Below are positions 8,125-36,927 of a DNA stretch of 64,000 nucleotides, piece by piece. A program made the translations under genes and the position numbers. The notes under the pieces are model-generated. The model was not told the DNA's origin and did not search any database. It worked only from the letters and a program-made list of their open reading frames with translations. How positions within the stretch are numbered: position 1 is the first letter of the stretch; each line of letters starts with the position of its first letter. This DNA comes from Beijerinckiaceae bacterium (lineage in GTDB: Bacteria > Pseudomonadota > Alphaproteobacteria > Rhizobiales > Beijerinckiaceae): positions 1 through 64,000 of the forward strand of contig JAIELD010000011.1 in NCBI GenBank assembly GCA_019753285.1, in the 5' to 3' direction.

Positions 8125-8225
8125 CATGCGCTGGCTGCGACACGAAAATCGCTCACGGTTTTGCTGAAACTGTCCTAAACTCATCGGCATTCCATCAGGC
8201 GAAAACGAAAAAGAGGAAGCTTCCC

Positions 8226-9455
8226 ATGGACAATCCAGGCGGCAACACGGCCCCGAAGCTGAAGAGCCATTCGACGAAATCCGAGTTCGTATGGGCCGAT
8301 CCCTTCCTGCTCGAAGATCAGCTCGGCGAGGATGAGCGCCTGATCCGCGACAGCGCCGAGGCCTATGCCCAGTCCCGCCTCCTGCCGCGCGCCATCGAAG
8401 CCTATGCCAATGAGAACACCGACCGCGCCATCTTCAACGAGATGGGCGAGCTTGGCCTGCTCGGCGTGACAGTGCCGGAGGAATATGGCGGGGCCGGCGC
8501 CGGCTACGTCTCCTACGGCCTTGTCGCCCGCGCGGTCGAGCGCGTCGATTCGGGCTACCGCTCGATGATGAGCGTGCAATCCTCGCTCGTCATGTATCCG
8601 ATCTACGCCTATGGCGACGAGACGCAGCGCAAGACCTATTTGCCGAAACTCGCAAGTGGCGAATGGGTCGGCTGCTTCGGCCTCACCGAGCCCGATGCCG
8701 GCTCGGACCCCGCAGGCATGAAGACCCGCGCCGAGAAGGTTGCCGACGGCTACCGCCTCACCGGCTCCAAGATGTGGATCTCCAACAGCCCGATTGCCGA
8801 TGTGTTCGTCGTCTGGGCGAAGTCCGCCGCGCACAACAACGAGATTCGCGGCTTCATCCTGACAAAGGGCATGAAGGGCCTTTCCGCGCCGAAGATCGCC
8901 GGCAAGCTCTCGCTGCGCGCCTCGATCACCGGCGAGATCGTGATGGACGGCGTGATCGTGCCCGAAGAAAACCTGCTGCCGAACGTCTCGGGCCTCAAGG
9001 GCCCGTTCGGCTGCCTCAACCGTGCGCGCTACGGCATCAGCTGGGGCGTAATGGGCGCGGCGGAGGATTGCTGGCACCGCGCGCGCGGCTACACGCTGGA
9101 CCGCAAGCAGTTCGGCCGCCCGCTCGCCGCGACGCAACTCGTCCAGAAGAAGCTCGCCGACATGCAGACCGAGATCGCGCTTGGCCTGCAGGCCTCGCTC
9201 CGCGTCGGCCGCCTGTTCGACGAGGGCAAGGTCGCGCCCGAGATGATCTCGATCGTCAAGCGCAACAATTGCGGCAAGGCGCTCGACATTGCGCGACAGG
9301 CCCGCGACATGCACGGCGGCAACGGCATCGCCGGCGAATACCATGTGATGCGCCACATGCAGAACCTCGAGACGGTCAACACCTATGAGGGCACGCATGA
9401 CGTGCACGCGCTGATCCTCGGCCGTGCAATCACCGGCATCCAGGCGTTCTTCTAG
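8226..9455 (+). CDS. gcdH: Glutaryl-CoA dehydrogenase
   Basis: This FAD enzyme oxidatively decarboxylates glutaryl-CoA to crotonyl-CoA, passing electrons to electron-transfer flavoprotein. The 409-residue product has the acyl-CoA dehydrogenase blocks [14 protein letters not shown] and [18 protein letters not shown]. The C-terminal [19 protein letters not shown] carries the catalytic Glu, and the overall sequence is of GcdH type. The ATG at 8226 follows a purine-rich AAGAGGAAGC ribosome site; an in-frame extension upstream runs through the terminator and is not coding. Besides lysine and tryptophan breakdown, glutaryl-CoA is the expected end of the reductive nicotinate route encoded from 14 kb onward. 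That link is inference. Confidence 0.93.
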
Positions 9456-13989: not shown

Positions 13990-15186
13990 ATGTCCCATGA
14001 CGAACCCTCAGCATCTGGCGCGCCGACGAAGCTCGTCATCCGCAACATCGGCCTGCTGCTGAGCGGCGATCTTCAAAACCCGATCCTCGATGCGGACACG
14101 GTCGTCGCCATCGACGGGCGCATCACCGGCATCGGCAGGCAAAAGGATCTGGACACGGAGGGCGCAACCACGCTCATCGACGCGAACGGCGTCGCGCTGA
14201 CGCCCGGCCTCATCGACAGTCATGTCCACCCGGTCGCCGGCGACTGGACGCCGCGCCAGAGCCAGCTCAACTGGATCGATTCCTCGCTCCATGGCGGCGT
14301 CACCACCATGATCTCGGCCGGCGAGGTGCATACGCCTGGCCGCCCGCGCGATATCGTCGGCCTGAAGGCGATGGCGATCACGGCGCAGCGCTGCTTTTCG
14401 AATTTCCGAGCCAGCGGCGTCAAGGTGCATGCCGGTGCGCCGGTCATCGAGCCGGGCATGGAGGAGCATGATTTTGCCGAACTCGCCGCAGCCGGCGTCA
14501 GATTTCTCGGCGAGGTGGGTCTTGGCGGCGTAAAGGACGGGCCGACTGCGCGCAAGATGGTCGCCTGGGCGAGGCAATACGGCATCAACAGCACGATCCA
14601 CACCGGCGGGCCGTCCATTCCAGGCTCCGGCCTCATCGACAAGGACGTGGTGCTCGAAGCCGATACGGACATCATCGGGCATATCAATGGCGGGCATACT
14701 GCGCTGCCGGACGATCAGATCGTCAGCCTCTGCGAATGCTGCAAGCGCGGGCTCGAACTCGTGCATAACGGCAATGAGCGCGCCGCTCTGCTCACCCTGC
14801 GCACCGCGGCGGAGCTTGGCGAGCTGAACCGGGTCATTCTCGGCACGGACGGCCCGGCCGGCTCCGGCGTCCAGCCGCTCGGCATCATCCGCATGATTTC
14901 GATGCTCTCCTCGCTCGGCGGCGTTCCTGCCGAGATCGCGCTTTGCTTCGCGACCGGCAACACGGCGCGGCTGCGTGCGCTCGATTGCGGCCTCCTTGAA
15001 GTTGGCCGATCCGCCGACTTCGTTTTCATGGACAAGGCGCAGCACAGCGCGGGACGAGACCTGCTCCACAGCATCGCGCTCGGCGATCTGCCAGGCATCG
15101 GCATGACGGTCATCGACGGGATTGTGCGTTCGGGGCGCAGCCGCAACACGCCGCCCGCGACGCGCGTGCCGGCGATCGCCGGCTGA
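13990..15186 (+). CDS. ena: Enamidase-like amidohydrolase (tetrahydro-6-oxonicotinate ring opening)
   Basis: The 398-residue product closely resembles, from memory, the enamidase of Eubacterium barkeri nicotinate fermentation. That enzyme hydrolyses 1,4,5,6-tetrahydro-6-oxonicotinate to 2-formylglutarate and ammonia. Visible amidohydrolase features are DSHVHP (His78, His80), HGGVTTMISAGE, VGEVGLGGVK, IHTGG (His204), GHINGGHTALP (His231, His236), GTDGPAGSG (Asp287) and the C-terminal SRNTPP. Shared non-catalytic stretches such as SRNTPPA and HINGG make this more specific than a generic amidohydrolase call. It is transcribed convergently with marR, 4 bp apart. It carries the same operator as the two catabolic/transport operons, supporting a role after 6-hydroxynicotinate reductase. 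Confidence 0.85.
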   Translation: MSHDEPSASGAPTKLVIRNIGLLLSGDLQNPILDADTVVAIDGRITGIGRQKDLDTEGATTLIDANGVALTPGLIDSHVHPVAGDWTPRQSQLNWIDSSLHGGVTTMISAGEVHTPGRPRDIVGLKAMAITAQRCFSNFRASGVKVHAGAPVIEPGMEEHDFAELAAAGVRFLGEVGLGGVKDGPTARKMVAWARQYGINSTIHTGGPSIPGSGLIDKDVVLEADTDIIGHINGGHTALPDDQIVSLCECCKRGLELVHNGNERAALLTLRTAAELGELNRVILGTDGPAGSGVQPLGIIRMISMLSSLGGVPAEIALCFATGNTARLRALDCGLLEVGRSADFVFMDKAQHSAGRDLLHSIALGDLPGIGMTVIDGIVRSGRSRNTPPATRVPAIAG

Positions 15187-15189
15187 AAA

Positions 15190-15636
15190 TCAGGTCAGCT
15201 TCTTCAAAAGCCGCAGAAAGAGGCCGCGCTCCTCGGCGGACAGCGGATGCAGCGTTTCGGCAGAAATATGCTCGGCGGCGGCAAGCGCGCGCTCGTAGAT
15301 CGTCCTGCCATCCTCTGTCAGCGCCACCATCAGGCGGCGGCCATCCTCCGGATCGGGCGATGTGCTGGTCATGCCGCGTTTCGTCAGGCGGTCGATCACG
15401 CCCTTGATGGTCGCGGCGTCCATCGAGGTCTTGCGGCCGAGCAGGTTCTGCGAGCAGGGGCCGAGCTCGCTCAGCTTCGCCAGCGCGGCCCATTGCGTCG
15501 GCGTCAGATCCTCGATCATCAGTTTGGCGAAAATGGTCGTATGGCGCTGGTTGGCCTGGCGCAGGATATAGCCCACCTGCTCGTCGAGCGTGTAGCCGCT
15601 GTCGGAGTCAAGAGCGCGAAGCACCGAAACGGCCAT
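15190..15636 (-). CDS. MarR-family transcriptional regulator of the nicotinate block
   Basis: The 148-residue winged-helix protein has MarR features: LTPTQWAALAKLSELGPCSQNLLGRKTSMDAATIKGVIDRLTKRG (recognition region) and the beta-wing DPEDGRRLMVALTEDG. MarR proteins often bind small aromatic acids and dissociate from palindromic operators. It is the last gene after the ABC importer genes and lies next to the enamidase. Its own upstream gap of 55 bp holds the palindrome GACTATAGTC (15683-15692) overlapping the livF stop. MarR-type regulators govern nicotinate genes in other proteobacteria, so control of this block is a reasonable inference, unproven here. Confidence 0.9.
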   Translation of the reverse strand: MAVSVLRALDSDSGYTLDEQVGYILRQANQRHTTIFAKLMIEDLTPTQWAALAKLSELGPCSQNLLGRKTSMDAATIKGVIDRLTKRGMTSTSPDPEDGRRLMVALTEDGRTIYERALAAAEHISAETLHPLSAEERGLFLRLLKKLT

Positions 15637-15691: not shown

Positions 15692-16426
15692 CTAAACCGC
15701 GAGGAATGCATCGCGAATATCCGGGCGAGCCTGAAAATCAGCCATTGTCCCGGCATACCGCACGGCGCCTTTCTCGATCACGGCGACGCGGTCCGAAATC
15801 AGCCGCGCGAAATGCAGGTTCTGTTCGCTGATGACGAGGCTGAGGCCGCTCGCTTTCATTTTGAGGATGATATCGGCCATCTGTTCGACGATCTTCGGCG
15901 CAAGGCCTTCGGACGGTTCGTCGAGCAGCACCAGCGAGGGATTGCCCATCAGGGTGCGGGCGATGGTCAGCATCTGCTGTTCGCCGCCGGACATGCGGCC
16001 GCCTTGCCTGCCGCGCAATTCGCGCAGATTGGGAAACACGTCGTAAAGCCGCTCTGGCGTCCAGGGTTCGAGGCCGGGACGCGGCGGCTGGACGCCGACG
16101 CTGAGGTTTTCTTCGACCGTGAGGTCGGTGAAGATACGGCGATCCTCCGGCACGTAGCCGAGGCCGCGCCGCACGATCTCGTAGGTCGGCAGGCCGGCGA
16201 TCGAGACGTTGTTGAAACTGATGTCGCCTTCCACCTTCGGCACGAGGCCCATGATCGAGCGGAACGTCGTCGATTTGCCTGCGCCGTTGCGCCCGAGCAG
16301 CGCCACCACCTCGCCGGGCTTCACCTCGATCGCCATGTCGAACAGGATGTGCGCCTGGCCATACCAGGCATTGAGCTTGTTGACGGCAAGGCCAAGGACG
16401 GCCGGGCTTTCGAAGGCCGCGCTCAT
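15692..16426 (-). CDS. livF: Branched-chain-type ABC transporter ATP-binding protein (LivF-like)
   Basis: The 244-residue ATPase has Walker A GRNGAGKST, signature MSGGEQQML, Walker B LVLLDEPSEGLAP and the LivF-typical order EDRRIFTDLTVEENL. It is one of two ATPases of a HAAT-family importer whose other parts lie just upstream on the same strand. Its start overlaps the livG stop by four bases. The substrate is inferred to be nicotinate or a derivative rather than leucine, because the operon shares an operator with the nicotinate catabolic genes. Confidence 0.95.
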   Translation of the reverse strand: MSAAFESPAVLGLAVNKLNAWYGQAHILFDMAIEVKPGEVVALLGRNGAGKSTTFRSIMGLVPKVEGDISFNNVSIAGLPTYEIVRRGLGYVPEDRRIFTDLTVEENLSVGVQPPRPGLEPWTPERLYDVFPNLRELRGRQGGRMSGGEQQMLTIARTLMGNPSLVLLDEPSEGLAPKIVEQMADIILKMKASGLSLVISEQNLHFARLISDRVAVIEKGAVRYAGTMADFQARPDIRDAFLAV

Positions 16427-17187
16427 GCGTGGCTCTCCGCATAGAGCGTGCCGGCACCGAGATAGACGGCCTGCACCTCGGCGCTGCGGCGCACGGCTTC
16501 CGGCAGGCCCTCGAAGATCAGCACGCCGCGATTGAGCACCATGATGCGGTCGGCGTGCTCGAACACCACATCCATGTCGTGCTCGGTGAACAGGATGCCG
16601 ATGGCGCGCGTCTTGGCGATGCGCGCGGCAAGGCTCATCAATTCGCCGCGCTCGCGCGGGGCCATGCCTGCGGCGGGCTCGTCCATCAGCAGCAGCTTTG
16701 GCTCGTTTGCGAGCGCGATGGCGAGTTCAAGACGCTTCAGATCGCCATAGGCGAGCTGGCGGCAGGGCCGGCCGGCGAATTCCGCCATGCCGACGAGATC
16801 GAGCAGCGCTTCCGCCTCGCGCGCGTGGAAGTGCCGCGCCGGCTTGCGCCAGACGGTGAGGAGCCGGTGATGCGAGAAAAGCGCCATCTGCACATTCTCG
16901 ATCACGGTCATCGACAGGAAGGTCTCGGTGATCTGGAAGGTGCGGCCGACGCCGAGCCGCCAGATGCGGCTGGGATCGAGGCCGCTCGTATCCACGCCAA
17001 GGATGCGGATCTCTCCCGCGCTGCGGCTCAACTGCCCGTTGATTATGTTGAAACAGGTGCTCTTGCCGGCCCCGTTCGGGCCGATCAAGGCCAACATCTC
17101 TCCAGCCTCGAGCGCAAAGCTGACATTGTCGACGACCTTGGGGCCGCCGAAGCTCTTGGTGAGGCCTTTGACCGAAAGCACCGTCAC
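16423..17187 (-). CDS. livG: Branched-chain-type ABC transporter ATP-binding protein (LivG-like)
   Basis: The 254-residue product begins at a GTG (17187), giving VTVLSVKGLTKSFGG. It has Walker A GPNGAGKST, the LivG-type GVGRTFQITETF, signature LAYGDLKRLELA, and LLLMDEPAAGMAP with the H-loop EHDMDVVFEHADRI. The same frame stays open far upstream under the permease gene; that extension is not coding. It overlaps the fused permease by four bases and livF by four, so the ATPases and permease should be made in fixed ratio. Confidence 0.95.
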   Translation of the reverse strand: MTVLSVKGLTKSFGGPKVVDNVSFALEAGEMLALIGPNGAGKSTCFNIINGQLSRSAGEIRILGVDTSGLDPSRIWRLGVGRTFQITETFLSMTVIENVQMALFSHHRLLTVWRKPARHFHAREAEALLDLVGMAEFAGRPCRQLAYGDLKRLELAIALANEPKLLLMDEPAAGMAPRERGELMSLAARIAKTRAIGILFTEHDMDVVFEHADRIMVLNRGVLIFEGLPEAVRRSAEVQAVYLGAGTLYAESHA

Positions 17188-19022
17188 GGCCTGACCTTCC
17201 GCCCGCCGAGGCCTTCGATCGCGCCGACGATGCCTTTGGGAAAGGCGACCACCAGCGCGACGATCAGCGCGCCGAGCGCCAGCTTCGAATAATCGGTCTG
17301 GCTCGTGAGCCAGATCGAGAGCGCTTTGAACACGAGCGCGCCGACGATGCCGCCGGAGACCGTCTCGATGCCGCCAAGCAGCACCATGACGAGGCCGTCG
17401 ACAGACAGCGGAATGCCGAGATTGTCTGGAAAGACGCTGCCCTTCGAAAATGTGTAGAGCGCGCCGGCCAGCGCCGCGAAGGTGCCTGCGACCACGAAGC
17501 TCGCCCACTGGATCGGTTGCCGGTCGAGCCCGATCGCCGCCGACCGCAATTGCGAGTCGCGCACCGCGCGGAAAGCGTAACCGAACGGCGAGAACACGAT
17601 GAGCCTGAGCACGGCGATCGCCGGCACGACGAGCGCCAATGTCAGCCAGTAGAAGCGCGCCGGGGTCGCGACGAAGGCGGCCGGCCAGAGGCCGAGCAAG
17701 CCATTGTCGCCGCCGGTCACCGCGTTCCACTGGAACGCGACGGACCAGGCGATCTGCGCAAAGGCGAGGGTGAGCATCGCGAAGTAGACGCCGGACAGCC
17801 TGACGCAGAACCAGCCGAACAGGAGCGCGCCGAGGCAGCCGAGCAGTGGGCCCGCGATGAGGGCCGCCAGCATGGGAGCGCCGAAGCTCTTCACCGCGAT
17901 CGCCGCGCCATAGGAGCCGAGGCCGAAATAGGCGGCATGTCCGAAAGAGACGAGCCCGCCGGTGCTGATCAGAAAATGCAGGCTCGCTGCGTAGAGCATG
18001 AAGATGAGGAGTTCGCTCGCGACCGAGAGCGCATAGTCGCCGGCCGCGAAGGGCAGCAGCGCCGCGAGTATCACCGCCGCCATCACGAGAAGACGCACCG
18101 AGCCGTCCAGCGGCCGCCAGGGCGCGGCGGCGCTCGCGTGCGCGCGCGTCGGCCCCTCCGCCTTCCCGAGCAGGCCCATCGGGCGGATGACGAGCACGAG
18201 CGCCATCACCAGAAAGACGAGGATGAGCGATATTTTGGGAAAGATGAGAATGCCGAACGCGTTGAGCTCCGAGACGAGGATCGCGGCAAGGAATGCGCCG
18301 ACGACATTGCCGAGCCCGCCGATCACCACCACGACGAACACTTCCGTGATGATGCGCAGATCCATCTGGTGCGTCACCGCCTCGCGCGGCAGTTGCAGCG
18401 CCCCGCCGAGCGCGGCGAGAAAGACACCGAGCGTGAACACGCTGGTGAACAGCCACTTCTGATTGACGCCGAGCGCCGCCACCATTTCCCGGTCCTGCGT
18501 CGCGGCTCTCACCAGCACGCCCCAGCGCGTGCGGCGGAACAGCAGAAAGAGCAGCAGAAGCACGAGCGGTCCGATGCCGATGAGGAACAGGTCGTAGGAC
18601 GGGAAGGGCAGGCCCATCACGTCGACCGCACCGCGAAAACCGGGCGCCCGGCGGCCGAGCAGGTCCTCCGGCCCCCAGATGAGGAGCGAAAGATCCTCCG
18701 CCGCCAACGTCAGGCCGAAGGTGGCGAGCAACTGGAATAGCTCCGGCGCGCGATAGATGCGGCGCAGCAAAAGCATTTCAAGGAGTGCGCCGACGAGCGC
18801 CACGACAAGGGCTGCGACGACGATCCCGCCCCAGAAGCCGAGCGCCCCGGACAGCCGCTCGGTGAGCGAATAGGCGACATACGCGCCGAGCATGTAGAAC
18901 GCGCCATGCGCGAAATTCACGATGCGCGTCACGCCGAAGATGATCGACAGCCCTGATGAGACCAGAAACAGCGACGCAGCGCTCGCGAGGCCTGCCAGAA
19001 ACTGCACGAGGTAGAAGTTCAA
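17184..19022 (-). CDS. Fused LivH-LivM permease of branched-chain-type ABC importer
   Basis: A single 612-residue protein carries both permease domains that are usually separate. The LivH-like half (about 1-290) runs from FYLVQFLAGLASAASLF through IIFGVTRIVNFAHGAFYMLGAY to VVVVIGGLGNVVGAFLAAILV. After a short linker, the LivM-like half (about 310-612) contains STGGLVSFGHAAYFGLGSY and ends with MVLLGGIETVSGGIVGALV. The TTG at 19022 is chosen because it follows a GAGGT-like site and the protein then starts at the first transmembrane segment. The open frame upstream runs into a repeat. Some alphaproteobacteria have this fusion. It overlaps livG by four bases. Confidence 0.9.
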   Translation of the reverse strand: MNFYLVQFLAGLASAASLFLVSSGLSIIFGVTRIVNFAHGAFYMLGAYVAYSLTERLSGALGFWGGIVVAALVVALVGALLEMLLLRRIYRAPELFQLLATFGLTLAAEDLSLLIWGPEDLLGRRAPGFRGAVDVMGLPFPSYDLFLIGIGPLVLLLLFLLFRRTRWGVLVRAATQDREMVAALGVNQKWLFTSVFTLGVFLAALGGALQLPREAVTHQMDLRIITEVFVVVVIGGLGNVVGAFLAAILVSELNAFGILIFPKISLILVFLVMALVLVIRPMGLLGKAEGPTRAHASAAAPWRPLDGSVRLLVMAAVILAALLPFAAGDYALSVASELLIFMLYAASLHFLISTGGLVSFGHAAYFGLGSYGAAIAVKSFGAPMLAALIAGPLLGCLGALLFGWFCVRLSGVYFAMLTLAFAQIAWSVAFQWNAVTGGDNGLLGLWPAAFVATPARFYWLTLALVVPAIAVLRLIVFSPFGYAFRAVRDSQLRSAAIGLDRQPIQWASFVVAGTFAALAGALYTFSKGSVFPDNLGIPLSVDGLVMVLLGGIETVSGGIVGALVFKALSIWLTSQTDYSKLALGALIVALVVAFPKGIVGAIEGLGGRKVRP

Positions 19023-19069
19023 GCGCTGACCTCGGCGGCAATTCCGATGGGTGCTGCCGATGCAGCATC

Positions 19070-19230
19070 GTCCCTCCCCCCATTCATGGCGGGGAGGGCA
19101 GGGTGGGGGGTGGACTGTCCACGCCGTCGCTCGCAAACAGGGCTGACAGGTTGGATCACGATTCCCAACTCGGCCGCATCCTCTAACGCCCCCCACCCGT
19201 AGCCTCCCTGCCGCAAGCGGGGTGAGGGAC
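19070..19230. repeat. GC-rich inverted repeat between binding-protein and permease genes
   Basis: The left unit (19070-19114) contains TCCCTCCCCCCATTCATGG, then GCGGGGAGGG and GGGTGGGGGG. The right unit (19187-19230) contains CGCCCCCCACCCGTAG and GCGGGGTGAGGGA. GGGTGGGGGG and CCCCCCACCC pair across about 70 bp. It fills most of the 244-bp gap inside the transport operon, so it will be transcribed and may set relative expression or mRNA stability. The style matches the element at 9461-9600. Confidence 0.65.
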
Positions 19231-19266
19231 GCTGGACGAGTGGTGGCAGTCGAGCGGCAGCGATGG

Positions 19267-20475
19267 TCACTGCGCGGGCCGCAGCTTCTTCACCTCTTCA
19301 TCCGACGGCAGGTATTTCAGCCCGTCGCGGTAGGTGAAATCAACCATCACGCCCTTGCCGTCCTTTTGGCTCGTCTTGCCGACGAAGGCGCCCAGCGTCG
19401 AATTATGGTCGGATTTGCGGTAGGTGACAGGCCCGAAGGGCGTCTTCACTTCGAGTCCTTCGGCCGCATCGACCAGCTTCTCGCTATCGGTCGAGTTGGC
19501 TTTCGCAAGCGCGGCCGCAGCCGACATCATGGTTGCATAGCCGACGACGGAGCCAAGGCGCGGATAATCGTTGAACTTCGCCTGATAGGCCTTGAGGAAG
19601 GCGTCATGTTCCGGCGTCTTCACGCCGCTCCATGGATAGCCGGTGACGATCCAGCCCTCCGGCGTCTCCTCCTTCAGCGGATCGAGATATTCAGGCTCGC
19701 CAGTGAGGAAGCTCACAACCGGCCGATCCTTGAACAGGCCGCGCGTATTGCCCTCGCGCACGAATTTGGTGAGGTCCGCGCCGAAGGTGACGTTGAGAAT
19801 GGCTTCCGGCTCGGCCTTGGCGACGGCCTGCGTGATCGCGCCGGCGTCGATCTTGCCCTGCGGCGGCCATTGCTCGTCGACCCACTGGATGTCGGGCCGT
19901 TTCGCGGACAGGAGTTGCTTGAATACCGCAACCGCCGACTGGCCATATTCGTAGTTCGGCGCGACCGTCGCCCATTTCTTGGCCGGCAGCTTTGAGGCTT
20001 CCTCCGCAAGCATGGCGGCCTGCACGTAATTGCTTGGCCTCAGGCGGAAGGTGTAGCGGTTGCCTTTCGACCAGGTGATCGCGTCGGTCAGCGGTTCGGC
20101 CGCGATGAAGAGGATTTTCTTCTGGTTGGCGAAATCGGCGACCGCAAGGCCGATATGCGAGAAGAAGGTGCCGGTGAGCATCACGACGCCGTCCTTGGAG
20201 ACGAGCTCGTTGGCGGTGGTCACCGCGTCGCCCGGCTTGCCGCCATCATCCTTCGAGATGACCTCCAGCATCTTGCCGTTGACGCCGCCCTTGGCGTTGA
20301 TCTCCTCGATGGCGAGCTGCCAGCCCTTGCGATAAGGCTCCGTGAAGGCGGGCAGCGCTGAATAGCTGTTGATCTCGCCGATCTTGATCTTGTCTTGCGC
20401 AGATACCGAGGTAGCTATCGTTGGCAGGCAAACAAAAACGATGCCTGCGACCAGTATAGATTGAAGCTTCTTCAT
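19267..20475 (-). CDS. Periplasmic substrate-binding protein of branched-chain-type ABC importer
   Basis: The 402-residue protein has a signal peptide (MKKLQSILVAGIVFVC, cleavage after SVSAQ) and a type I periplasmic-binding fold. Conserved features include IKIGEINSYS, EEINAKGGVNGK, LVSKDGVVMLTGTF and YEYGQSAVAVFKQLL. The ATG at 20475 follows AAGGGGCAAGC; an in-frame start nine codons upstream would spoil the signal peptide. It is the first gene of an operon with fused permease, two ATPases and MarR. Binding proteins of this kind carry amino acids, amides or aromatic acids. The shared operator suggests a pyridine carboxylate, unproven. Confidence 0.92.
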   Translation of the reverse strand: MKKLQSILVAGIVFVCLPTIATSVSAQDKIKIGEINSYSALPAFTEPYRKGWQLAIEEINAKGGVNGKMLEVISKDDGGKPGDAVTTANELVSKDGVVMLTGTFFSHIGLAVADFANQKKILFIAAEPLTDAITWSKGNRYTFRLRPSNYVQAAMLAEEASKLPAKKWATVAPNYEYGQSAVAVFKQLLSAKRPDIQWVDEQWPPQGKIDAGAITQAVAKAEPEAILNVTFGADLTKFVREGNTRGLFKDRPVVSFLTGEPEYLDPLKEETPEGWIVTGYPWSGVKTPEHDAFLKAYQAKFNDYPRLGSVVGYATMMSAAAALAKANSTDSEKLVDAAEGLEVKTPFGPVTYRKSDHNSTLGAFVGKTSQKDGKGVMVDFTYRDGLKYLPSDEEVKKLRPAQ

Positions 20476-20557
20476 TGCTTGCCCCTTGTTACAGACATTC
20501 ATGTGTTTGATGGCGCTTGTGGCCTGAAAAGAAAAGACGTCTCTTCAGAAAATTATT

Positions 20558-20583: not shown

Positions 20584-21168
20584 TCAGCGCAACCCGTCCT
20601 CTCCTTTGACCTCATCCTTCTTCAGTCCGCCGATGCGCGGCAGGGGCCGCCCGCCGCTCGTCACCGCGATGGCGACCATGATCTCGTCCGCGCGCGGCGC
20701 ATCGGGCAGACGCACCTCCATCCCGTCGAAATGGCTGCGCACGAAGGCGGCGTCCTTGTGGCCGAGAGGGATGTCGAGCGCGACGCCGAGCCCGCCGCGC
20801 TTCTTCGAGGAGGGGATGAGCGCCGCGCCCTTGCCGAGCGCCCTGCGGACCGGCGCGCCCATCTTCGGGTGCAGCAGCGCCGCCGCATGCTCGAGCTCGC
20901 CGTTTTCGCCGACAGCCGCCGCCTTGCCATAGCTCTCGACGCTATGGGCGTCGATGCCGAGCGCCACGACCGCGCGCTCCGTCAGCAACGCTCCGAGTTC
21001 CTCGCCCGCATCGATCAGCGCATCGAGCGCCTCGACGTATTTGCCGGCGAACGGGTTCGCGATCACGGCGATGGCGGCAGCGCGCCGCACGGGCGGATCG
21101 ATCGCGCGGCCCATCTCGCTGCGTGTCTCCTCGACGATGGTGACGATCTTGCGGATCGAGACGCTCAT
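20584..21168 (-). CDS. DUF1185 (AA_synth) family protein, second copy
   Basis: The 194-residue protein belongs to the conserved DUF1185/'amino acid synthesis' family, whose biochemical role I do not know. Shared blocks with its upstream neighbour are AVIANPFAGKYVEALDALID, SYGKAAAVGENGELEHAAAL, ALIPSSKKRGG, FVRSHFDGMEVRLPDAPRAD and the C-terminal DEVKGEDGLR. It has no signal peptide or membrane segment, so is cytosolic. It is the last gene of the catabolic operon and overlaps the first DUF1185 copy by four bases. Two tandem copies suggest a heteromer. An enzymatic role after ring opening is a guess from context. Confidence 0.85.
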   Translation of the reverse strand: MSVSIRKIVTIVEETRSEMGRAIDPPVRRAAAIAVIANPFAGKYVEALDALIDAGEELGALLTERAVVALGIDAHSVESYGKAAAVGENGELEHAAALLHPKMGAPVRRALGKGAALIPSSKKRGGLGVALDIPLGHKDAAFVRSHFDGMEVRLPDAPRADEIMVAIAVTSGGRPLPRIGGLKKDEVKGEDGLR

Positions 21169-21749
21169 CGGAGGCCATCCTCGCCCTTGACGTCGCTCGC
21201 TTTCAGCCCGCCGGCGCGGTCATGGATGCGCGCGCCGGTCGTCATCACCAGCGCCAGCAGCAATTCGTCGGCGCGCGGCGCGTCGGGGATGCCGATTTCG
21301 ACGCTGTCGAAATGGCTGCGCACGTAAGATGCGTTGATGTGCGTGACGGGGATGTCGAGGCGGCTGCCCGGCCCCGCGACCTTCTTCGACGAGGGGACGA
21401 TGGCTTTTGCGCCGCCCAGCGCCTCGCGCATGGCGTAGCCGCCGGGCACGTGCCAGAGCGCGCCATGCTCGACCTCGCCGGCGCTGCCGACGATCGCGCC
21501 CTTGCCGTAACCCTGGATCGCACCGACATCGCCGCCGAGCGCCTTAATCAGCGCCAGGGCCATATCGAGCCCGAGCGGCTTCAAATCGTCTGAAAAGCCG
21601 ATGATGTCCTCGACATAGCGTCCCGCGAACGGGTTGGCGATCACGCTCAGGATCGCGCCGCGCAGATAGGGGCGCGCCTGCCTAGGGCCGCCCTCGTGGT
21701 GGATTTCCTCGATCGTCAGCAGGCGTTTGCGCTCGATCACGTCAGGCAT
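21165..21749 (-). CDS. DUF1185 (AA_synth) family protein, first copy
   Basis: The 194-residue paralogue of the next gene has blocks SVIANPFAGRYVEDIIGFSD, QGYGKGAIVGSAGEVEHGAL, AIVPSSKKVAGPGSRLDIPV, YVRSHFDSVEIGIPDAPRAD and the ending KASDVKGEDGLR. The start MPDVIERK at 21749 is chosen by alignment with the paralogue; the frame is open further upstream inside UPF0280. It overlaps UPF0280 by eight bases and the second copy by four. Family function is unknown to me. The glycine-rich PFAGRY and SSKK segments look like ligand-binding sites, and both copies keep them. Confidence 0.85.
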   Translation of the reverse strand: MPDVIERKRLLTIEEIHHEGGPRQARPYLRGAILSVIANPFAGRYVEDIIGFSDDLKPLGLDMALALIKALGGDVGAIQGYGKGAIVGSAGEVEHGALWHVPGGYAMREALGGAKAIVPSSKKVAGPGSRLDIPVTHINASYVRSHFDSVEIGIPDAPRADELLLALVMTTGARIHDRAGGLKASDVKGEDGLR

Positions 21750-22626
21750 GGATGGCAGCCTCTTGAAGTCGGAATGGCCGGTCGGTGCTGGCGTCCGTCG
21801 CGAGCGTCGTCCCGGAAAGGTGCAGCGACGCCGCTTCAATCAAGCCGCTGCGCTTCAGATGCTCCGCCATCGCCAGCCCGTTCGCAAGAGCGTCCTCGAT
21901 CTCGCTTCGACGCAGCGGCCCGAGCGCGATCGTTACGAGCCTGTTGCCGAGGTCGCTCTGCGGATCGAGATCGCAGGCCTGCTGCCGCGTGACGGCTGGA
22001 TGGCCGGGCAGATCGACCGCGTTGGCGATGATCGTCGCGGCCGCGTCCGCCTCCGCCGCGCTTTGCGCGAGCACCGTCACGGCATCCGCGATGCCGCGCG
22101 AGAAGGAGCGCCCATGCCGGCCGCTCGTCGCGATGCCTCGCACGGGCGAGCGCCCGTCGATGCGTGCGATGCCCACCACCTCGCCTTTGCCTGGGTCGCC
22201 GATCATCGCCGCAGAGAACCGCGCCGTTGGCGACAATAAAAGCGCGATGTCCCCGCCATTATTGACATAGGCTTTCTCGAGTGTCGCCGCCTCTGCCATC
22301 GCCGCAAGAATCGCGTCGGCGACCGCGCCGGCGACGGCGGCCATGGGCGTGATAAAATGGTCTGCCGCAAACGGCACGACCGCCGCTTCCATGCGCCGCG
22401 CCACCGGGCCGCTGACGACGGACAGACCCGGCCGCGCCTGCCGCCGCAGCGCCTCAAGCTCCGAGCACAACTCGCCAAGCACCGGATCGAAGCGCCGGAT
22501 AGCGGCTCGATGGGCCTTGATGATCTCGACATCCGCGCCGAAGGTCTCAATGATGAGGTCGATCGGCCCGTGCTGCAGGTGGAGCCTGCCATCGGCGAGG
22601 AGAGCGTGTTGCGGAGCGTCTCTCAT
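21742..22626 (-). CDS. UPF0280 family protein
   Basis: The 294-residue protein matches the UPF0280 family, whose fold is related to ApbE-type FMN transferases but whose function is not established. Visible blocks are GPIDLIIETFGADVEIIKAH, FITPMAAVAGAVADAILAAM, KAYVNNGGDIALLLSP, RGIATSGRHGRSFSRGIADA and ANAVDLPGHPA. ApbE-like enzymes use a GGD-type motif, and NNGGDIAL is intact here. It overlaps the 6-hydroxynicotinate reductase stop (ATGA), so it is translated with it. Maturing a flavin or acting directly on a pathway intermediate are both open; neither is shown. Confidence 0.88.
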   Translation of the reverse strand: MRDAPQHALLADGRLHLQHGPIDLIIETFGADVEIIKAHRAAIRRFDPVLGELCSELEALRRQARPGLSVVSGPVARRMEAAVVPFAADHFITPMAAVAGAVADAILAAMAEAATLEKAYVNNGGDIALLLSPTARFSAAMIGDPGKGEVVGIARIDGRSPVRGIATSGRHGRSFSRGIADAVTVLAQSAAEADAAATIIANAVDLPGHPAVTRQQACDLDPQSDLGNRLVTIALGPLRRSEIEDALANGLAMAEHLKRSGLIEAASLHLSGTTLATDASTDRPFRLQEAAIHA

Positions 22627-24080
22627 GCGCCGGCCCGCCGAAGGGCGGTGATCGCCGGCGATTGCGTCACCTGCCGCCCGCTTTCCTCGTCGAGGATGTC
22701 GTCGAGTGGCCGGATATGGTCGAGATGCCCGCCGAGCGCCGCGTAGTCGGCGAGTGTCATGGTGAACTCGATCGGCGCGACGAGAGCCGGCGTCGGTACG
22801 TAGCCGAAGGCGTTCTCGGGCAGGGCGAGCACGTCGACCATGAAGGTGATGCCGCCGCCCGGCCAGACATAAACCGGCGCGCCGCCGGCAGTGACGGTTG
22901 TCAGCGCGTCTTTCACCGAGCGCGTGAGGCGAACCGGATTTTCAGTGACGCCGGCCCTGAGCGATCCGCCGGCTCCAGCCATGAACAGCACGGAGCAGAG
23001 CGCCGGCTCGCAATTCTCGCTGATGAGCTCGACCGAACGCCTGAGGTCGGCGGGAAGCGGCGTCTCGACCGGATTGAGCCGCTCGTCGAGCCGGAAGAAG
23101 GCGTGCTGCTCGCCGGTCGTCGACACCATGAGCAGCGTCATCCCGGGCCAGGCCTTGTCCGGATTGAAGCCGGCTACGATCTCCAGCGGGTCGGTGATGT
23201 CGGTGCCGCCCCAACCGGAGCCAGGCTGCGCGACGTGAAAATACCGGCCCGGCGTCGAGCGGCGGCCCTTCATCCTGATGCCCGTCTCGCGGATGTCGAG
23301 CATCTTGCCGGCCTGATGCTCGGACAGAACGCCGGTGATGTGATCGTCGACCACCACCACCTCGTCGACCTTGCCGTGCCATTGCTTGGCGAACATGCCG
23401 ATCGTGGCGGAGCCGCAGCCGACGCGCATGCGGGCCTCGGTCTCGCCGTTGACGATCGGCGGTTGTCCAGCCTGCACGATGAGCGTCGCGCCATCGTCGA
23501 CGTTGAGTTCGACGGCCTTGCCGTTGCAGAGGTCCATCAGCACCTCGCAGGTGACGCGCCCCTCCTTCTTGCCGCCATGCGTCAGATGGTTGACGCCGCC
23601 GAGCGAGAGCATCTGCGAGCCATATTCGCCGGTCATCACATGACCGACCGGCTCGCCATCGGCGCGCACGAGGCTGCGCTCCGGCCCAATGAAACGGTCC
23701 GTGTCGATCTTCACCTTGACGCCGCAGTAGGAGTAGATGCCCTCCGTCACGACCGTCACCATGTCGACGCCGTCGACCTTCGAGGAGACGATGAAGGGAG
23801 CGGGCTTGTAGTCGGGATAGGTCGTGCCCGCACCGATCGCCGTGACGAACGGGTTGGAGGCGCGGATGAGGTCGCCGTCCCAATCGCCGCCGCCTTCAAG
23901 GAATGGAACCACCGTTCCACCACCGCTGACGGTCCGCTCCAGCAGAATATGCGGATCGACGCGCACGAGCTCGCCGTTTTCATTGGCGTAGCGGTCGCAG
24001 GCCCCGCTCATGCCGGGCTTGATGTAGCAGAGCACCGGGCATGCGTCGCAGCGAATCTTGCCATCCGGCGGGGCGCTCAC
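22623..24080 (-). CDS. hnr: 6-hydroxynicotinate reductase
   Basis: The 485-residue product resembles the iron-sulfur 6-hydroxynicotinate reductase of nicotinate-fermenting Eubacterium, which reduces 6-hydroxynicotinate to 1,4,5,6-tetrahydro-6-oxonicotinate. A cysteine cluster Cys11, 14, 18, 28 (CDACPVLC...GAC) looks like a [4Fe-4S] ligand set. Later conserved stretches include TYPDYKPAPFIVSSKVDGVD, EGIYSYCGVKVKIDTDRFIG and MRVGCGSATIGMFAKQW. A GTG at 24080 overlaps the stop of the molybdenum hydroxylase gene. The recognisable pairing with enamidase and a nicotinate-dehydrogenase-type hydroxylase makes this the anchor of the pathway call. Confidence 0.9.
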   Translation of the reverse strand: MSAPPDGKIRCDACPVLCYIKPGMSGACDRYANENGELVRVDPHILLERTVSGGGTVVPFLEGGGDWDGDLIRASNPFVTAIGAGTTYPDYKPAPFIVSSKVDGVDMVTVVTEGIYSYCGVKVKIDTDRFIGPERSLVRADGEPVGHVMTGEYGSQMLSLGGVNHLTHGGKKEGRVTCEVLMDLCNGKAVELNVDDGATLIVQAGQPPIVNGETEARMRVGCGSATIGMFAKQWHGKVDEVVVVDDHITGVLSEHQAGKMLDIRETGIRMKGRRSTPGRYFHVAQPGSGWGGTDITDPLEIVAGFNPDKAWPGMTLLMVSTTGEQHAFFRLDERLNPVETPLPADLRRSVELISENCEPALCSVLFMAGAGGSLRAGVTENPVRLTRSVKDALTTVTAGGAPVYVWPGGGITFMVDVLALPENAFGYVPTPALVAPIEFTMTLADYAALGGHLDHIRPLDDILDEESGRQVTQSPAITALRRAGA

Positions 24081-26857
24081 GAGGCTTCGCCCTTTGCCGC
24101 GAGAATGGCGCTGCGCACCCGGTCCGGCGTCGCGGGGATCTGCCTGATGCGCGCCCCAGTCGCGAAATGGATTGCGTTGAGGATGGCCGGCGCGGTCGGG
24201 ATCAGCGCTTGCTCGCCGATGCCTTTTGCGCCGTAGGGGCCGATGGAGGAAGCGTCCTCGATCAGGATCGAGGTGACCGGCGGCATGTCGCCTATGGTCG
24301 GGATGAGATAGTCGTGCAGGTTCTCGCCCCCGCCCGGGAAGAACTCCTCCATCAGCGCAAGGCCGAGGCCCTGCGCCGCGCCGCCCTCTATCTGGCCTTC
24401 CACAAGCGTCGGGTTGATCGCCTTGCCGACATCGTGGGCGCAGATGAGATGCAGCACCTTCACGCGGCCAAGCTCGATGTCGACCTCGATTTCGGCAAGA
24501 TGCGCGCCATAGCCGAACACCGCGTAGGGCTCGCCCTGGCCATCCGCGTCGAGGCTCGTCGTCGGCGGATCGAAGGTCTCCTCGACCTCGATGACGAAGC
24601 CGCGCCTGTTGACAGGCATAGCGCCGAGCTCGATCGTTCGCGCGGCCGGGCCTTCACCGATCAGGAGAGCGCCGTCCCTTACCGCGATCGGCGCGTCATC
24701 GCCGGCATTGGCGAGACGCAGCATCGCCGCCCGCATGGCGCTGCCGGCAAGATACGCCGCCTTGCCGCTGATGAAGGTCTGGCGAGAGGCGGACGTCTTG
24801 CCGCAATCGGGCGTGAGGTCGGTATCTGCGCCGACGAGATCGAACCGGTCGAGCGGCAGGCCGAGCGCGTCGGCGCAAATCTGCGGGATAACCGTGTTCG
24901 AGCCCTGGCCGATGTCCACAGCGCCCTGGAACAGCGTCAGCCTGCCGTCCGGCTTCAAACCGAGCCGAATGGTCGAGGGGTTCGAGAGCGAGGTGTTGCC
25001 GCAACCATACCACATGCCGGCGACGCCGACGCCGCAACGATGCGGGCCGGTCGCGTTGGCATTGAAACGGTTCGCGGCCTCACGCTTCGCCAGCCAGTGC
25101 GGGCGGAGCGCCTCGAGGCAGGCGCGATAACCGACGCCATCGGCAAAGACCTGGCCGGTCACGGTCGGCAGGCCGGTTTGCAGCGCATTGAAGATGCGAA
25201 AGTCGAGCGGGTCCATGCCAAGCTTCAAGGCAAGCTCGTCATAGAGTTGCTCCTGCGCCACCGCGCTCTGCGGCACGCCGAAGCCGCGAAATGCGCCGGA
25301 TGGCACGAGATGCGTGTGGATCGCTCGCGCAACGGCCTTGTAATGCGGCACATGATAGGGGCCGGATGCGTGCACCGGCACGCGGTTGGCGACGGTCGGT
25401 CCCCAGGAGGCGTAGGCGCCCGTGTTGAAATCGCCCCTGAAATCGATGCCGGTCAGCTTGCCGTCCTGCGTCGCACCGACCTTCATGCGGATCAGCGAGG
25501 GGTGCCGCTTGGTCGTCGTCATGATCGATTCGGCGCGCGAATAGACCATGCGCACCGGATGGTTCAGATGCCAGGCCGCGAGCGCGATGAAGGGCTGCAC
25601 GGAAAGATCGAGCTTCGCGCCGAAACCGCCGCCGACCGCTGTCGGGATGATCCGCACCTGCTCCGGCGCGATGCCGAGGATTTTCGCGATGTCGTCGCGG
25701 TCCATGTAGGGCGACTGCGTGCAGGCCTTGACCTCGATGCGGTTGCCGACGCGACGGGCAAAGCCGGCCTCCGGCTCGATATAGGCGTGTTCGACGAAGC
25801 CGGACTGGAAAACACCCTCCACCACGACGTCAGCCGCCGCGAGCCCGGCCTCGGCATCGCCGCGCATCACCCTGCCCTGCGCCAGCACATTCCCGGCGCG
25901 TGACGGGTGAACGAGGGCAGCATCCGCGGCAAGCGCCGCTTCGACGGTGACGACGGCAGGCAGTGGCATGAAGTCGATCGGAAAGGCGGAGGCGTCGAAG
26001 CGCGCCATCGCGGCCTCGGTGCCGACGACGAGCGCCACGGCATCGCCGCGAAACCGCGCGACGCTCTCGGCCAGCGCCGGCTGGTCGGCGAATGGCGGAA
26101 TGACGCCGAAGCAATTCTCGCCCGGTATGTCCATCGCGGTGAAGACGGCGACGATCCCCTCATGTTTAGCCACATAAGCGTCGGTGTCGCCGATGGTGAA
26201 GCGCGCATGGGGGTGCGGCGAGCGGATGGTGCGGCAAACGTAAGAATCGACAGGCCAGTCATCGGCCCCGAAGACATCCTCGCCCGTGACCTTGCGTTGG
26301 CCGTCGAGGCGCTCGACCCTTGCGCCGACGGCTGCGCCCGTCCGGGCCTCATCCGCGATCGGCGCATGGGCGTTCATCACCGCTTCGATGATCTTGCGAT
26401 AGCCGGTGCAGCGGCAGAGCACGCCGCCGAGCGCATCCATGGTTTCTGCCTCGCTCGGTTGGGGCGAGCGACGCAGCAGCGCCAGCGCCGCAAGCAGCAT
26501 GGCAGGCGTGCAGATGCCGCACTGCGCCGCGCCGTGCCTCAGGAACGAGCGCTGCAGCGTCTGCATCTCCGGTAGACCATTCAGCCCTTCGATCGTCTCG
26601 ATGAGAGCCCCTTCCGCCCGCGCGGCCGGCACGAGGCAGGCGCAGACGGGTTCACCGTCCATCAGCACCGTGCAGGCACCGCAATCGCCTGCATCGCAGC
26701 CGACCTTCGTGCCCTTGAGGCCGAAATCGTCACGCAGCACCTGTGTCAGACGCTTCAGAGGCGAGCCTTGATGGACGAGCGCCTCGCCATTCACGGTAAC
26801 GACCGTGGAATGCGCGGAACGGGCGGTGAAATCGGTCGTGGAAGAGCGGTCCAGCAT
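24077..26857 (-). CDS. Nicotinate dehydrogenase-like fused [2Fe-2S]/molybdopterin subunit
   Basis: The 926-residue protein joins two subunits of a xanthine-dehydrogenase-family hydroxylase. Residues 1-165 carry two [2Fe-2S] sites (Cys54, 59, 62, 74 and Cys113, 116, 148, 150, with CDAGDCGACT, QCGICTPAM, CRCTGY). The remainder is the molybdopterin domain with GGGFGAKLD, FRGFGVPQ, DIGQGSNTVIP and the catalytic-Glu region KGIGEQALIPTAP. It should hydroxylate nicotinate at C6 using water, given its neighbours. From sequence alone, another N-heterocycle is possible. The ATG at 26857 overlaps the FAD-subunit stop by one base; an upstream in-frame start is less likely. Confidence 0.88.
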   Translation of the reverse strand: MLDRSSTTDFTARSAHSTVVTVNGEALVHQGSPLKRLTQVLRDDFGLKGTKVGCDAGDCGACTVLMDGEPVCACLVPAARAEGALIETIEGLNGLPEMQTLQRSFLRHGAAQCGICTPAMLLAALALLRRSPQPSEAETMDALGGVLCRCTGYRKIIEAVMNAHAPIADEARTGAAVGARVERLDGQRKVTGEDVFGADDWPVDSYVCRTIRSPHPHARFTIGDTDAYVAKHEGIVAVFTAMDIPGENCFGVIPPFADQPALAESVARFRGDAVALVVGTEAAMARFDASAFPIDFMPLPAVVTVEAALAADAALVHPSRAGNVLAQGRVMRGDAEAGLAAADVVVEGVFQSGFVEHAYIEPEAGFARRVGNRIEVKACTQSPYMDRDDIAKILGIAPEQVRIIPTAVGGGFGAKLDLSVQPFIALAAWHLNHPVRMVYSRAESIMTTTKRHPSLIRMKVGATQDGKLTGIDFRGDFNTGAYASWGPTVANRVPVHASGPYHVPHYKAVARAIHTHLVPSGAFRGFGVPQSAVAQEQLYDELALKLGMDPLDFRIFNALQTGLPTVTGQVFADGVGYRACLEALRPHWLAKREAANRFNANATGPHRCGVGVAGMWYGCGNTSLSNPSTIRLGLKPDGRLTLFQGAVDIGQGSNTVIPQICADALGLPLDRFDLVGADTDLTPDCGKTSASRQTFISGKAAYLAGSAMRAAMLRLANAGDDAPIAVRDGALLIGEGPAARTIELGAMPVNRRGFVIEVEETFDPPTTSLDADGQGEPYAVFGYGAHLAEIEVDIELGRVKVLHLICAHDVGKAINPTLVEGQIEGGAAQGLGLALMEEFFPGGGENLHDYLIPTIGDMPPVTSILIEDASSIGPYGAKGIGEQALIPTAPAILNAIHFATGARIRQIPATPDRVRSAILAAKGEAS

Positions 26858-27705
26858 CACGCCACGCCTCCGCTCTTGCCTTCGGCGCACAGATCGACCG
26901 CGCGCCTAACCAGCGCCAATGCGGCATCGTGCCTGTAGGGCCCGGTTGCCCGGACATCGTCGATTGGGCTGAGCTCTGCGAGATACGCCGCGTCCACGGC
27001 GTCGCCGAGCCCGGACAGGGCCGGCTTTCCCATGAGCGCGGCTTCCGCGAGCGGCAGGCGTCGTGCAACCGGGGAACAGGCCCCGACGGCGATCCGCGCC
27101 TGTCGCACGACGCCCCCGGCGTCGGTTTCGAGTAGAACCGCGACCATCACGATCGAGATGACGAGGTACCGTCGCGCGCCGAGCTTCAGGAATATGGATC
27201 GCGCAGCGGCAGGCTCCGGCACGAGGATCGCTGTCATGATCTCGCCCGGCGCGCGCAGGGTGCGGCGATTGCCGGTGATGAAGTCGCGCAGCGGAATTCG
27301 GCGGATGCCGCCCAGCGACCGGAGTTCGACCTCAGCCTCGAGGATGAGAAGCGCCGGCACGCCGTCCGCCGCGGGCGAGGCGTTGCAGAGATTGCCGGCG
27401 AGCGTCGCGCGGTTCTGGATCTGCACCGAGCCGATCTCGCGTGCGGCCTGCTTCAGCGCGGCGAAGGCGGGCGGAAGATCGGCGGCGATGAGCGCAGCCC
27501 AGGTGACGCCGGCTCCGATCCGGATGAAGCCATCGGCGCGGCTGATGCCCCTGCAGGCGTCAAGTCCGCCAATGTCGATGAACCGGCCTTGAAGCTCGAC
27601 ATCGCCGGCGGCCGGGAAAATGTCCGTGCCGCCCGCGAACACCCTGACGCCCGGCTCGCTCGCCAGTCGGAGCGTCTCGTCGAGGTCAAGCGGGCGTGAC
27701 AGCAT
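26857..27705 (-). CDS. FAD-binding subunit of the molybdenum hydroxylase
   Basis: The 282-residue protein is the CoxM/XdhB-type FAD subunit that passes electrons from the Fe-S centres to an acceptor. It shows the two flavin motifs of the family, FAGGTDIFPA near residue 20-29 and the variant GSVQIQNRATLAGNLCNASPAADG near 93-116, and a C-terminal domain with ATGPYRHDAALALVRRAV. It is the first gene of a six-gene operon preceded by the perfect palindrome at 27754-27765. It uses an ATG 48 bp downstream of that site. Its stop overlaps the fused Fe-S/Mo subunit, its structural partner. Confidence 0.92.
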   Translation of the reverse strand: MLSRPLDLDETLRLASEPGVRVFAGGTDIFPAAGDVELQGRFIDIGGLDACRGISRADGFIRIGAGVTWAALIAADLPPAFAALKQAAREIGSVQIQNRATLAGNLCNASPAADGVPALLILEAEVELRSLGGIRRIPLRDFITGNRRTLRAPGEIMTAILVPEPAAARSIFLKLGARRYLVISIVMVAVLLETDAGGVVRQARIAVGACSPVARRLPLAEAALMGKPALSGLGDAVDAAYLAELSPIDDVRATGPYRHDAALALVRRAVDLCAEGKSGGVA

Positions 27706-36919: not shown

Positions 36920-36927
36920 CGTCAGGC

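Follow-up and report, generated by a model that had tools for sequence, protein, structure and literature searches.

Immediately downstream of a gene resembling 6-hydroxynicotinate reductase (hnr), the 64,000-nucleotide stretch of Beijerinckiaceae DNA analyzed here as a whole (the window; contig JAIELD010000011.1) carries a UPF0280 gene and two tandem DUF1185 genes. The question raised by this locus is which steps of nicotinate degradation the three products serve, and whether they serve them together, as an earlier note on this DNA had assumed in stating that all three are needed with hnr. We find that UPF0280 is the partner of hnr, that one of the DUF1185 copies, DUF1185-B, follows the gene of a likely enamidase more than it follows hnr, and that UPF0280 and the two DUF1185 genes are not one unit. 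The explanation that we regard as best, and hold with middling confidence, is a reductive nicotinate operon in which UPF0280 would mature Hnr and DUF1185-B would act after ring opening. The genes, their coupling and their co-occurrence are observed and the fold of UPF0280 comes from a predicted model; from these we infer all reactions and substrates of UPF0280 and DUF1185 named below. The four genes concerned are:

20584..21168, minus strand: DUF1185-B (PF06684), 194 amino acids, 248.6 bits against a cut-off of 27; candidate enzyme after ring opening (2-formylglutarate)
21165..21749, minus strand: DUF1185-A (PF06684), 194 amino acids, ATG at 21749, 220.6 bits; clade of BB2672/3byq
21742..22626, minus strand: UPF0280 (COG2122, ApbE fold), putative Hnr partner, 294 amino acids, 384.3 bits on NF003322 against a cut-off of 290
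22623..24080, minus strand: hnr, 6-hydroxynicotinate reductase-like, 485 amino acids, conserved cysteines C11, C14, C18, C28, C119, C178, C222 and C357

The short overlaps of 4-8 bp described earlier are present. Read from the sequence, they amount to 4 bp for hnr/UPF0280, 8 bp for UPF0280/DUF1185-A and 4 bp for DUF1185-A/DUF1185-B, and the two DUF1185 copies are indeed of equal length. Both pass the PF06684 membership cut-off, as UPF0280 passes that of NF003322.

UPF0280 and hnr occur in the same genomes

In a draw of 385 alphaproteobacterial genomes (277 genera by the tool's tally), hnr, called as a relative of the window Hnr at E ≤ 1e-20, was found in 68 genomes, and UPF0280, called with NF003322 at E ≤ 1e-10, in the identical 68; 65 of the 68 UPF0280 matches exceed the curated cut-off of that model. 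Second pieces of split matches (hnr of G028; UPF0280 of G087, G292, G194, G358 and G064) were left out before counting. The hnr genomes are related and therefore not independent samples, and are spread over 42 of the 277 genera (again the tool's tally). In 67 of the 68, UPF0280 lies 3′ of hnr on the same contig and strand, at a distance of no more than 464 bp; the remaining genome is split over contigs. Because both genes occur in the same 68 genomes, their neighbourhood is not due to chance.

All eight further hnr genomes also have UPF0280, two of them as partial matches at contig ends. The eight include the genomes of L070 and L107, two 21-kb hnr loci without an adjacent UPF0280, which have the gene elsewhere; the copy of the L070 genome contains one in-frame TAG in the matched frame, and that of the L107 genome lies on another contig together with a DUF1185 pair. 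Among 60 genomes of an acidobacterial phylum, sampled around the hnr-bearing metagenome-assembled genome (MAG) G385 as anchor, UPF0280 was found in four only, once beside hnr (in G385) and three times beside DUF39 (PF01837; L243 2424-3167, L244 465-1208 and L245 739-1443). Hnr was found in G385 alone and DUF39 in three genomes, none of which lacks UPF0280. The three DUF39-associated copies reach 62-77 bits on NF003322, below its cut-off (E 3e-17 to 8e-22). Some hnr genes are interrupted: hnr is split over two frames in G028 (G028:C1:2969814-2971207) and has one in-frame stop in G358 (G358:C1:659473-660876), where the UPF0280 match is also in two pieces.

DUF1185 is absent from 9 of the 68 hnr genomes, eight of the nine being 90-100% complete, so that Hnr and UPF0280 are able to work without it. 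PF06684 was matched in 82 of the 385 genomes, 81 of them above cut-off (59 of the 68 with hnr, 22 of the 317 without); the match below it, in G056 (E 5.4e-4), was left out before counting. In this survey UPF0280 follows hnr, and DUF1185 is also found in hnr-less genomes. The pairing of UPF0280 with Hnr is supported; the view that the trio is needed with hnr as one unit is not supported as stated.

Fold and conserved residues of UPF0280 and properties of Hnr

The AlphaFold2 (AF2) model of UPF0280 (pLDDT 94.3) is best matched by DVU1097 (2o34; Z 19.8). The flavin transferases ApbE, Ftp and FmnB match at Z 16.5-13.8 (rmsd 3.3-3.8, 205-222 residues aligned) and the next match is at Z 8.4, which bears out the fold relationship to ApbE proposed earlier. 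The link is remote in sequence: UPF0280 matched no Pfam family at E 0.001, PF02424 (ApbE) included, a sequence-profile search of the PDB recovered 2o34 and no ApbE, and hhalign against eight ApbE sequences gave 80% (E 1.4e-5, 97 columns). In the profile comparison the ATSG and AD..[AS]T segments of ApbE are kept in UPF0280. Across 37 UPF0280 rows, hnr-associated and DUF39-associated (three of the latter), the invariant residues include M95, V98, A99, G100, A103, G125 and D126 and further S168, G172, S174, S176, G178, A193 and D194. Of 13 hnr genomes tested for ApbE itself, six have it; it was not found in the other seven, namely G379, G163, G385 and G000 as well as G361, G197 and G381 (single contig, 100% complete). 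Canonical ApbE can therefore not be the general answer.

UPF0280 had been listed as a family of unknown function, which needs correction, since genetic work already ties COG2122 to homocysteine synthesis, its mutants being rescued by methionine as DUF39 mutants are (PMC5764234). According to the same source, the homology of COG2122 to ApbE seems not to extend to the flavin-binding region, and a persulfide role has been proposed by others.

Hnr has eight conserved cysteines, six of them invariant and the other two present in 135 and 134 of 136 sequences. The Hnr of Eubacterium barkeri reportedly carries a flavin in covalent linkage together with several Fe-S clusters. An SG-6C protein is 42% identical to the E. 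barkeri enzyme (PMC3511419), and 17 of 26 plasmid relatives of the window Hnr (64-71% identical) are named 6-hydroxynicotinate reductase. In clients of ApbE flavin transferases the flavin is attached at the motif D..[ST]GA[TS]. Canonical flavinylation of Hnr at an SGAT motif was rejected, as no such motif occurs in the 136 sequences and T226 of a GSAT segment is A or S in 16 of them. Homology of Hnr to DUF39 likewise found no support (hhalign probability 0.5%, with a shallow DUF39 profile of three rows). Because the AF2 model of Hnr is poor (pLDDT 60.2) and its best structural matches have Z 3.0 or less, no conclusion is drawn on its fold.

DUF1185-B follows the enamidase

The gene to which DUF1185-B is tied lies on the opposite strand:

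13990..15186, plus strand: ENA, amidohydrolase, likely enamidase (opens the 1,4,5,6-tetrahydro-6-oxonicotinate ring), assigned from Amidohydro_1 and context

An ENA orthologue (≥ 69% identity) is present in 30 of the 68 hnr genomes. DUF1185-B, defined by at least 58% identity to the window copy and a place within its clade (a rule fixed after the table was seen), occurs in all 30 of these versus 2 of the 38 without ENA, or 3 of 38 if a 56% copy in G104 is counted. In G185 and G279 it is an unlinked copy that satisfies the rule; that next to the enamidase was placed by Pfam only and not extracted; the DUF1185 of G079 is a fragment at a contig end, and a second copy in G367 was left out of the extraction. 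The same tie was seen in 80 named hnr loci, the closest of at least 587 relatives and skewed to Bradyrhizobium: all 47 that hold ENA also hold DUF1185-B. Among 24 loci that carry B but no ENA of their own, the enamidase turned up at another site of the genome in 16. DUF1185-B follows the enamidase more than hnr, which makes 2-formylglutarate a sensible substrate guess. The earlier idea that DUF1185 acts on this compound thereby gains support for copy B as a candidate.

A second way of opening the ring is possible in some hnr loci. The HyuA/HyuB pair of L034 (15008-18843) is nearest to caprolactamase, below its cut-offs, and of the hnr loci read, 17 of the 29 without ENA and 0 of the 11 with it have a HyuA relative; such a pair may be an alternative lactam-opening module. 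The ENA-less hnr stretches with caprolactamase-like HyuA, often as HyuA/HyuB, are L034, L116, L118, L193-L199, L201, L207, L210-L212, L215-L217 and L222.

The two DUF1185 copies

DUF1185-A and DUF1185-B share 48% identity and belong to separate clades, A grouping with BB2672 (3byq) and B with SPO0826 (2qtp), to which it is 70% identical; support for the B node is 0.55 only. All 243 DUF1185 rows, into which some genes entered through two loci, agree at R6, K82, H94, R108, E162 and R178. The published structure is a hexamer of chorismate mutase-like fold with conserved Glu, Arg and His at the dimer interface (PMC2954203). If the residue numbering of that paper runs one below the chain numbering, as we assumed, its Glu90, Glu92, His93, His98, His144, Arg172 and Arg176 are 96-100% conserved in the 243 rows, and its His174 falls below the 90% level. 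Of 35 rows that belong to neither the A nor the B clade, 10 have Thr at H100 (His98 of that paper). Neither copy looks like a dead subunit.

The gene order in the 80 hnr loci, counted as order only with no short gaps demanded, is hnr-UPF0280-A-B in 34, hnr-UPF0280-B in 34 and different in 12. B stands without A in 36 of the 80, mostly Bradyrhizobium, and A is present in 35. In the 385-genome survey, 19 tandem DUF1185 pairs were found, every one in an hnr genome. No A-clade copy was among those extracted in 8 of the 30 enamidase-bearing hnr genomes; such copies are found among ENA-bearing and ENA-less hnr genomes alike, and some genomes of each kind lack them. The heteromeric enzyme suggested earlier from the equal lengths of the two copies is not supported: B-only and A-only loci speak against an obligatory A/B heteromer, and the copies sit in separate clades, both with the invariant residues of the family. 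DUF1185-A may have a related activity or be a helper, dispensable in many lineages. In some loci (L184, L185, L102, L200, L220 and L033, 16070-17137) a Rieske-type oxygenase gene lies close to where the hnr-UPF0280 unit has its 3′ end, in several of them in the place of DUF1185-A.

DUF1185 away from hnr

The 60 DUF1185 loci unlinked to hnr, which include L124, the split-off end of an hnr cluster, were inspected for adjoining genes; the tallies are raw counts. An alpha/beta hydrolase related to that of the Rhizobium etli locus L040 adjoins DUF1185 in 18, an enamidase-like amidohydrolase in 7 and an ENA orthologue in 2, so that these three hydrolase kinds account for 27 of 60. An aldehyde dehydrogenase related to that of L040 is present in 14. 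Among 108 neighbour proteins scanned with Pfam, alpha/beta hydrolases are the most frequent (19), ahead of flavin reductases (9) and luciferase-like monooxygenases (7). We infer that the common element of the DUF1185 contexts is an amide or lactam hydrolase releasing a 2-formyl diacid or like product. In L134 and L148, unlike the hydrolase contexts, a DUF1185 nearest to copy A adjoins flavin amine-oxidase-like genes.

Alternative explanations

For UPF0280, a maturation or cofactor role fits best. We consider it probable that UPF0280 matures Hnr; flavin transfer, as one version of this role, is rather unlikely. Two absences weigh against the proposal: the His-bearing HILDP loop, whose His is invariant in eight ApbE rows, is missing from all 37 UPF0280 rows, and [ST]GA[TS] occurs in 0 of 136 Hnr sequences. 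Covalent flavin transfer by UPF0280 has the ApbE fold in its favour and lacks these two hallmarks of ApbE. The missing His loop would suit the main rival, namely that UPF0280 is a structural subunit or electron-transfer partner that stays in the Hnr complex, and so would the order hnr-UPF0280 in 67 of 68 genomes, the 4-bp overlap in the window and the constant co-occurrence. We nevertheless think this unlikely, because the same residues (for example M95, G100, G125, D126, S168, S174, S176, G178 and D194) are invariant beside hnr and beside DUF39, two clients with no detectable homology, and an enzyme is easier to reconcile with chemistry conserved on unrelated clients than a docking subunit is.

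DUF1185-B is the best candidate for the carboxyl loss, and the probability that it catalyzes this decarboxylation may fall a little short of even. Against it, in 8 of the 24 B-bearing genomes without ENA in the locus no enamidase was detected (five MAGs and the three isolates of L070, L116 and L118), and L116 and L118 have A and B with the caprolactamase-like HyuA/HyuB pair. G104 has a tandem B copy just under the 58% rule without an ENA orthologue, DUF1185 is missing from the 1.8-Mb genome G453, which carries a fragment of ENA, and 33 of the 60 unlinked loci have none of the three hydrolase kinds adjoining. In the trigonelline pathway the release of succinic semialdehyde is credited to a hydrolase, so that TgnF, its DUF1185 protein, would have another role. 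In Acinetobacter baylyi, TgnF reportedly has a stimulating effect on the TgnE-dependent oxidation of succinic semialdehyde (PMC7913881, citing Perchat 2018), which qualifies the earlier description of DUF1185 as lacking a known reaction; for HcdD, the DUF1185 protein of the coumarin pathway, the authors saw no such effect (PMC7913881), so that the family need not be decarboxylases. Together with the aldehyde dehydrogenase genes at 14 of the unlinked loci, TgnF would suit accessory or stimulating factors for aldehyde dehydrogenases in place of decarboxylation catalysts. We regard this as improbable, since matches to aldehyde dehydrogenase references came from 1 of 80 hnr loci, DUF1185 has hydrolases beside it more often, and its invariant ionisable residues suit an active site. 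It is also doubtful that DUF1185-B helps the enamidase in ring opening or tautomerisation, as a hydrolysis helper or enol/keto isomerase, with spontaneous loss of CO2, although beta-formyl acids can lose CO2 on their own, the fold is chorismate mutase-like, and DUF1185-B, where not tandem, lies 58-349 bp from ENA (G357, G279, G185, G065, G007 and G001). Against it, the E. barkeri enamidase is said to give (S)-2-formylglutarate (PMC9304392, PMC7356986). Finally, DUF1185 proteins were proposed to be pH- or salt-responsive sensors or proteins of amino-acid metabolism from a histidine cluster, the behaviour of the hexamer and nearby branched-chain amino-acid transport genes (PMC2954203). This appears highly improbable here, where the transport genes of the hnr loci read belong to catabolic clusters, and hydrolases and oxygenase components lead the tally of unlinked DUF1185 neighbours.

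Neighbouring genes and proposed pathway

The remaining features of the locus are:

24077..26890, minus strand: molybdoenzyme in which [2Fe-2S] and Mo domains are fused, likely the large subunit of nicotinate dehydrogenase (family only)
26857..27705, minus strand: molybdoenzyme FAD subunit (family match)
15190..15636, minus strand: MarR-family regulator (family match; relatives in other hnr loci)
15692..20502, minus strand: ABC uptake system of branched-chain amino acid type, likely for nicotinate uptake (binding protein 19267-20502)
8223..9455, plus strand: glutaryl-CoA dehydrogenase, which fits a glutarate outlet (gene start not fixed)

Read along the minus strand, the order is FAD subunit, [2Fe-2S]/Mo subunit, hnr, UPF0280, DUF1185-A, DUF1185-B, ABC uptake and MarR, with ENA opposite; the upstream molybdoenzyme gene overlaps hnr by 4 bp (24077-24080). 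For the glutaryl-CoA dehydrogenase gene, nine solved sequences were matched (1.6e-111 to 6.6e-219), of which eight bear the name glutaryl-CoA dehydrogenase (one as 'putative'); a single NCBIfam model for this enzyme was hit, with a score under its cut-off. It lies 4.5 kb from the enamidase gene, a placement consistent with a glutarate route, and relatives (78-90% identity) occur near hnr in 3 of the 80 loci (L051, L093 and L118). An ORF cluster of which one scanned member is a nicotinate phosphoribosyltransferase occurs near hnr in 15 of the 80 (L045, L046, L047 and 12 others), mostly Bradyrhizobium, and supports nicotinate as the substrate.

The molybdoenzyme would convert nicotinate to 6-hydroxynicotinate, Hnr would reduce this to 1,4,5,6-tetrahydro-6-oxonicotinate, and the enamidase would open the ring to 2-formylglutarate and NH3. 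The Azorhizobium nicotinate route gives glutarate (PMC3511419); with 2-formylglutarate as the enamidase product, one carboxyl must then be lost. We propose that 2-formylglutarate would yield glutarate semialdehyde and CO2, followed by glutarate and glutaryl-CoA. DUF1185-B, a presumed hexamer with the conserved His/Arg/Glu cluster at the dimer interface, would act after ring opening, most likely in the decarboxylation of 2-formylglutarate or else in enol/aldehyde handling. UPF0280, as a dedicated maturation partner with an ApbE fold and a conserved Asp/Thr metal-type site, would load or modify a redox cofactor (flavin, or Fe-S/persulfide) on Hnr, and its relatives would probably do likewise for the unrelated DUF39 enzyme.

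An E. barkeri-type lower pathway was considered for window positions 34878-37830 (minus strand), where LeuC-like and isocitrate-lyase-family genes are found, with a LeuD-like ORF and, further on, a GntR-like ORF, both recognized by eye. We take the LeuC-like/isocitrate-lyase-family pair to resemble the dimethylmalate dehydratase/lyase pair. This candidate was rejected, and the genes are probably unrelated to the pathway, because a relative lies near only one hnr locus read (L196, LeuC 57%).

Significance and comparison with known systems

No paper assigning UPF0280 or DUF1185 a step in the nicotinate pathway was found in the literature searched, which leaves out most subscription journals and was partly accessible. 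The adjacency of hnr to UPF0280 and DUF1185 has probably been published in part; new, within the reach of our searches, are the figures on co-occurrence and the division of the trio between Hnr and enamidase. Within the same literature, both families have had structures for over a decade and no assigned reaction. Through its one-to-one partnership with Hnr, UPF0280 gains a client in addition to DUF39, this one assayable in vitro, and the residues common to both contexts mark a site to mutate. The association of DUF1185-B with the enamidase, and of many other copies with other hydrolases, proposes one reaction class, the handling of 2-formyl diacids, for a family whose genes occur in ring-degradation clusters of the nicotinate, the trigonelline-like and other kinds. 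Two old families of unknown function thus become testable enzyme candidates. Taken jointly, UPF0280 might be a second, His-loop-less class of ApbE-fold modifying enzymes providing an essential redox modification, possibly covalent flavin, to Hnr and DUF39, and DUF1185 a family of chorismate-mutase-fold decarboxylases of 2-formyl diacids in several N-heterocycle pathways; we think it unlikely that the two hold together.

E. barkeri reportedly reduces 2-formylglutarate instead of taking it to glutarate. In the accessible descriptions of the nicotinate pathway via 1,4,5,6-tetrahydro-6-oxonicotinate, in E. barkeri and in Azorhizobium and Bradyrhizobiaceae SG-6C (PMC3511419), UPF0280 and DUF1185 are unnamed and without a role. 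With ApbE, Ftp and FmnB, UPF0280 shares the fold (Z about 16) and the AD..[AS]T and ATSG motifs; it differs from them in having no PF02424 match, no HILDP His loop and no client motif in Hnr. The trigonelline pathway has a C4 instead of a C5 semialdehyde and another hydrolase. What TgnF shares with the window is the occurrence of DUF1185 in an N-heterocycle pathway near semialdehyde oxidation (PMC7913881). Finally, the COG2122/UPF0280 protein that accompanies DUF39 and NIL-ferredoxin (PMC5764234) is, like that of the window, a member of the same family and the genetic partner of one enzyme, the client being DUF39 there and Hnr here.

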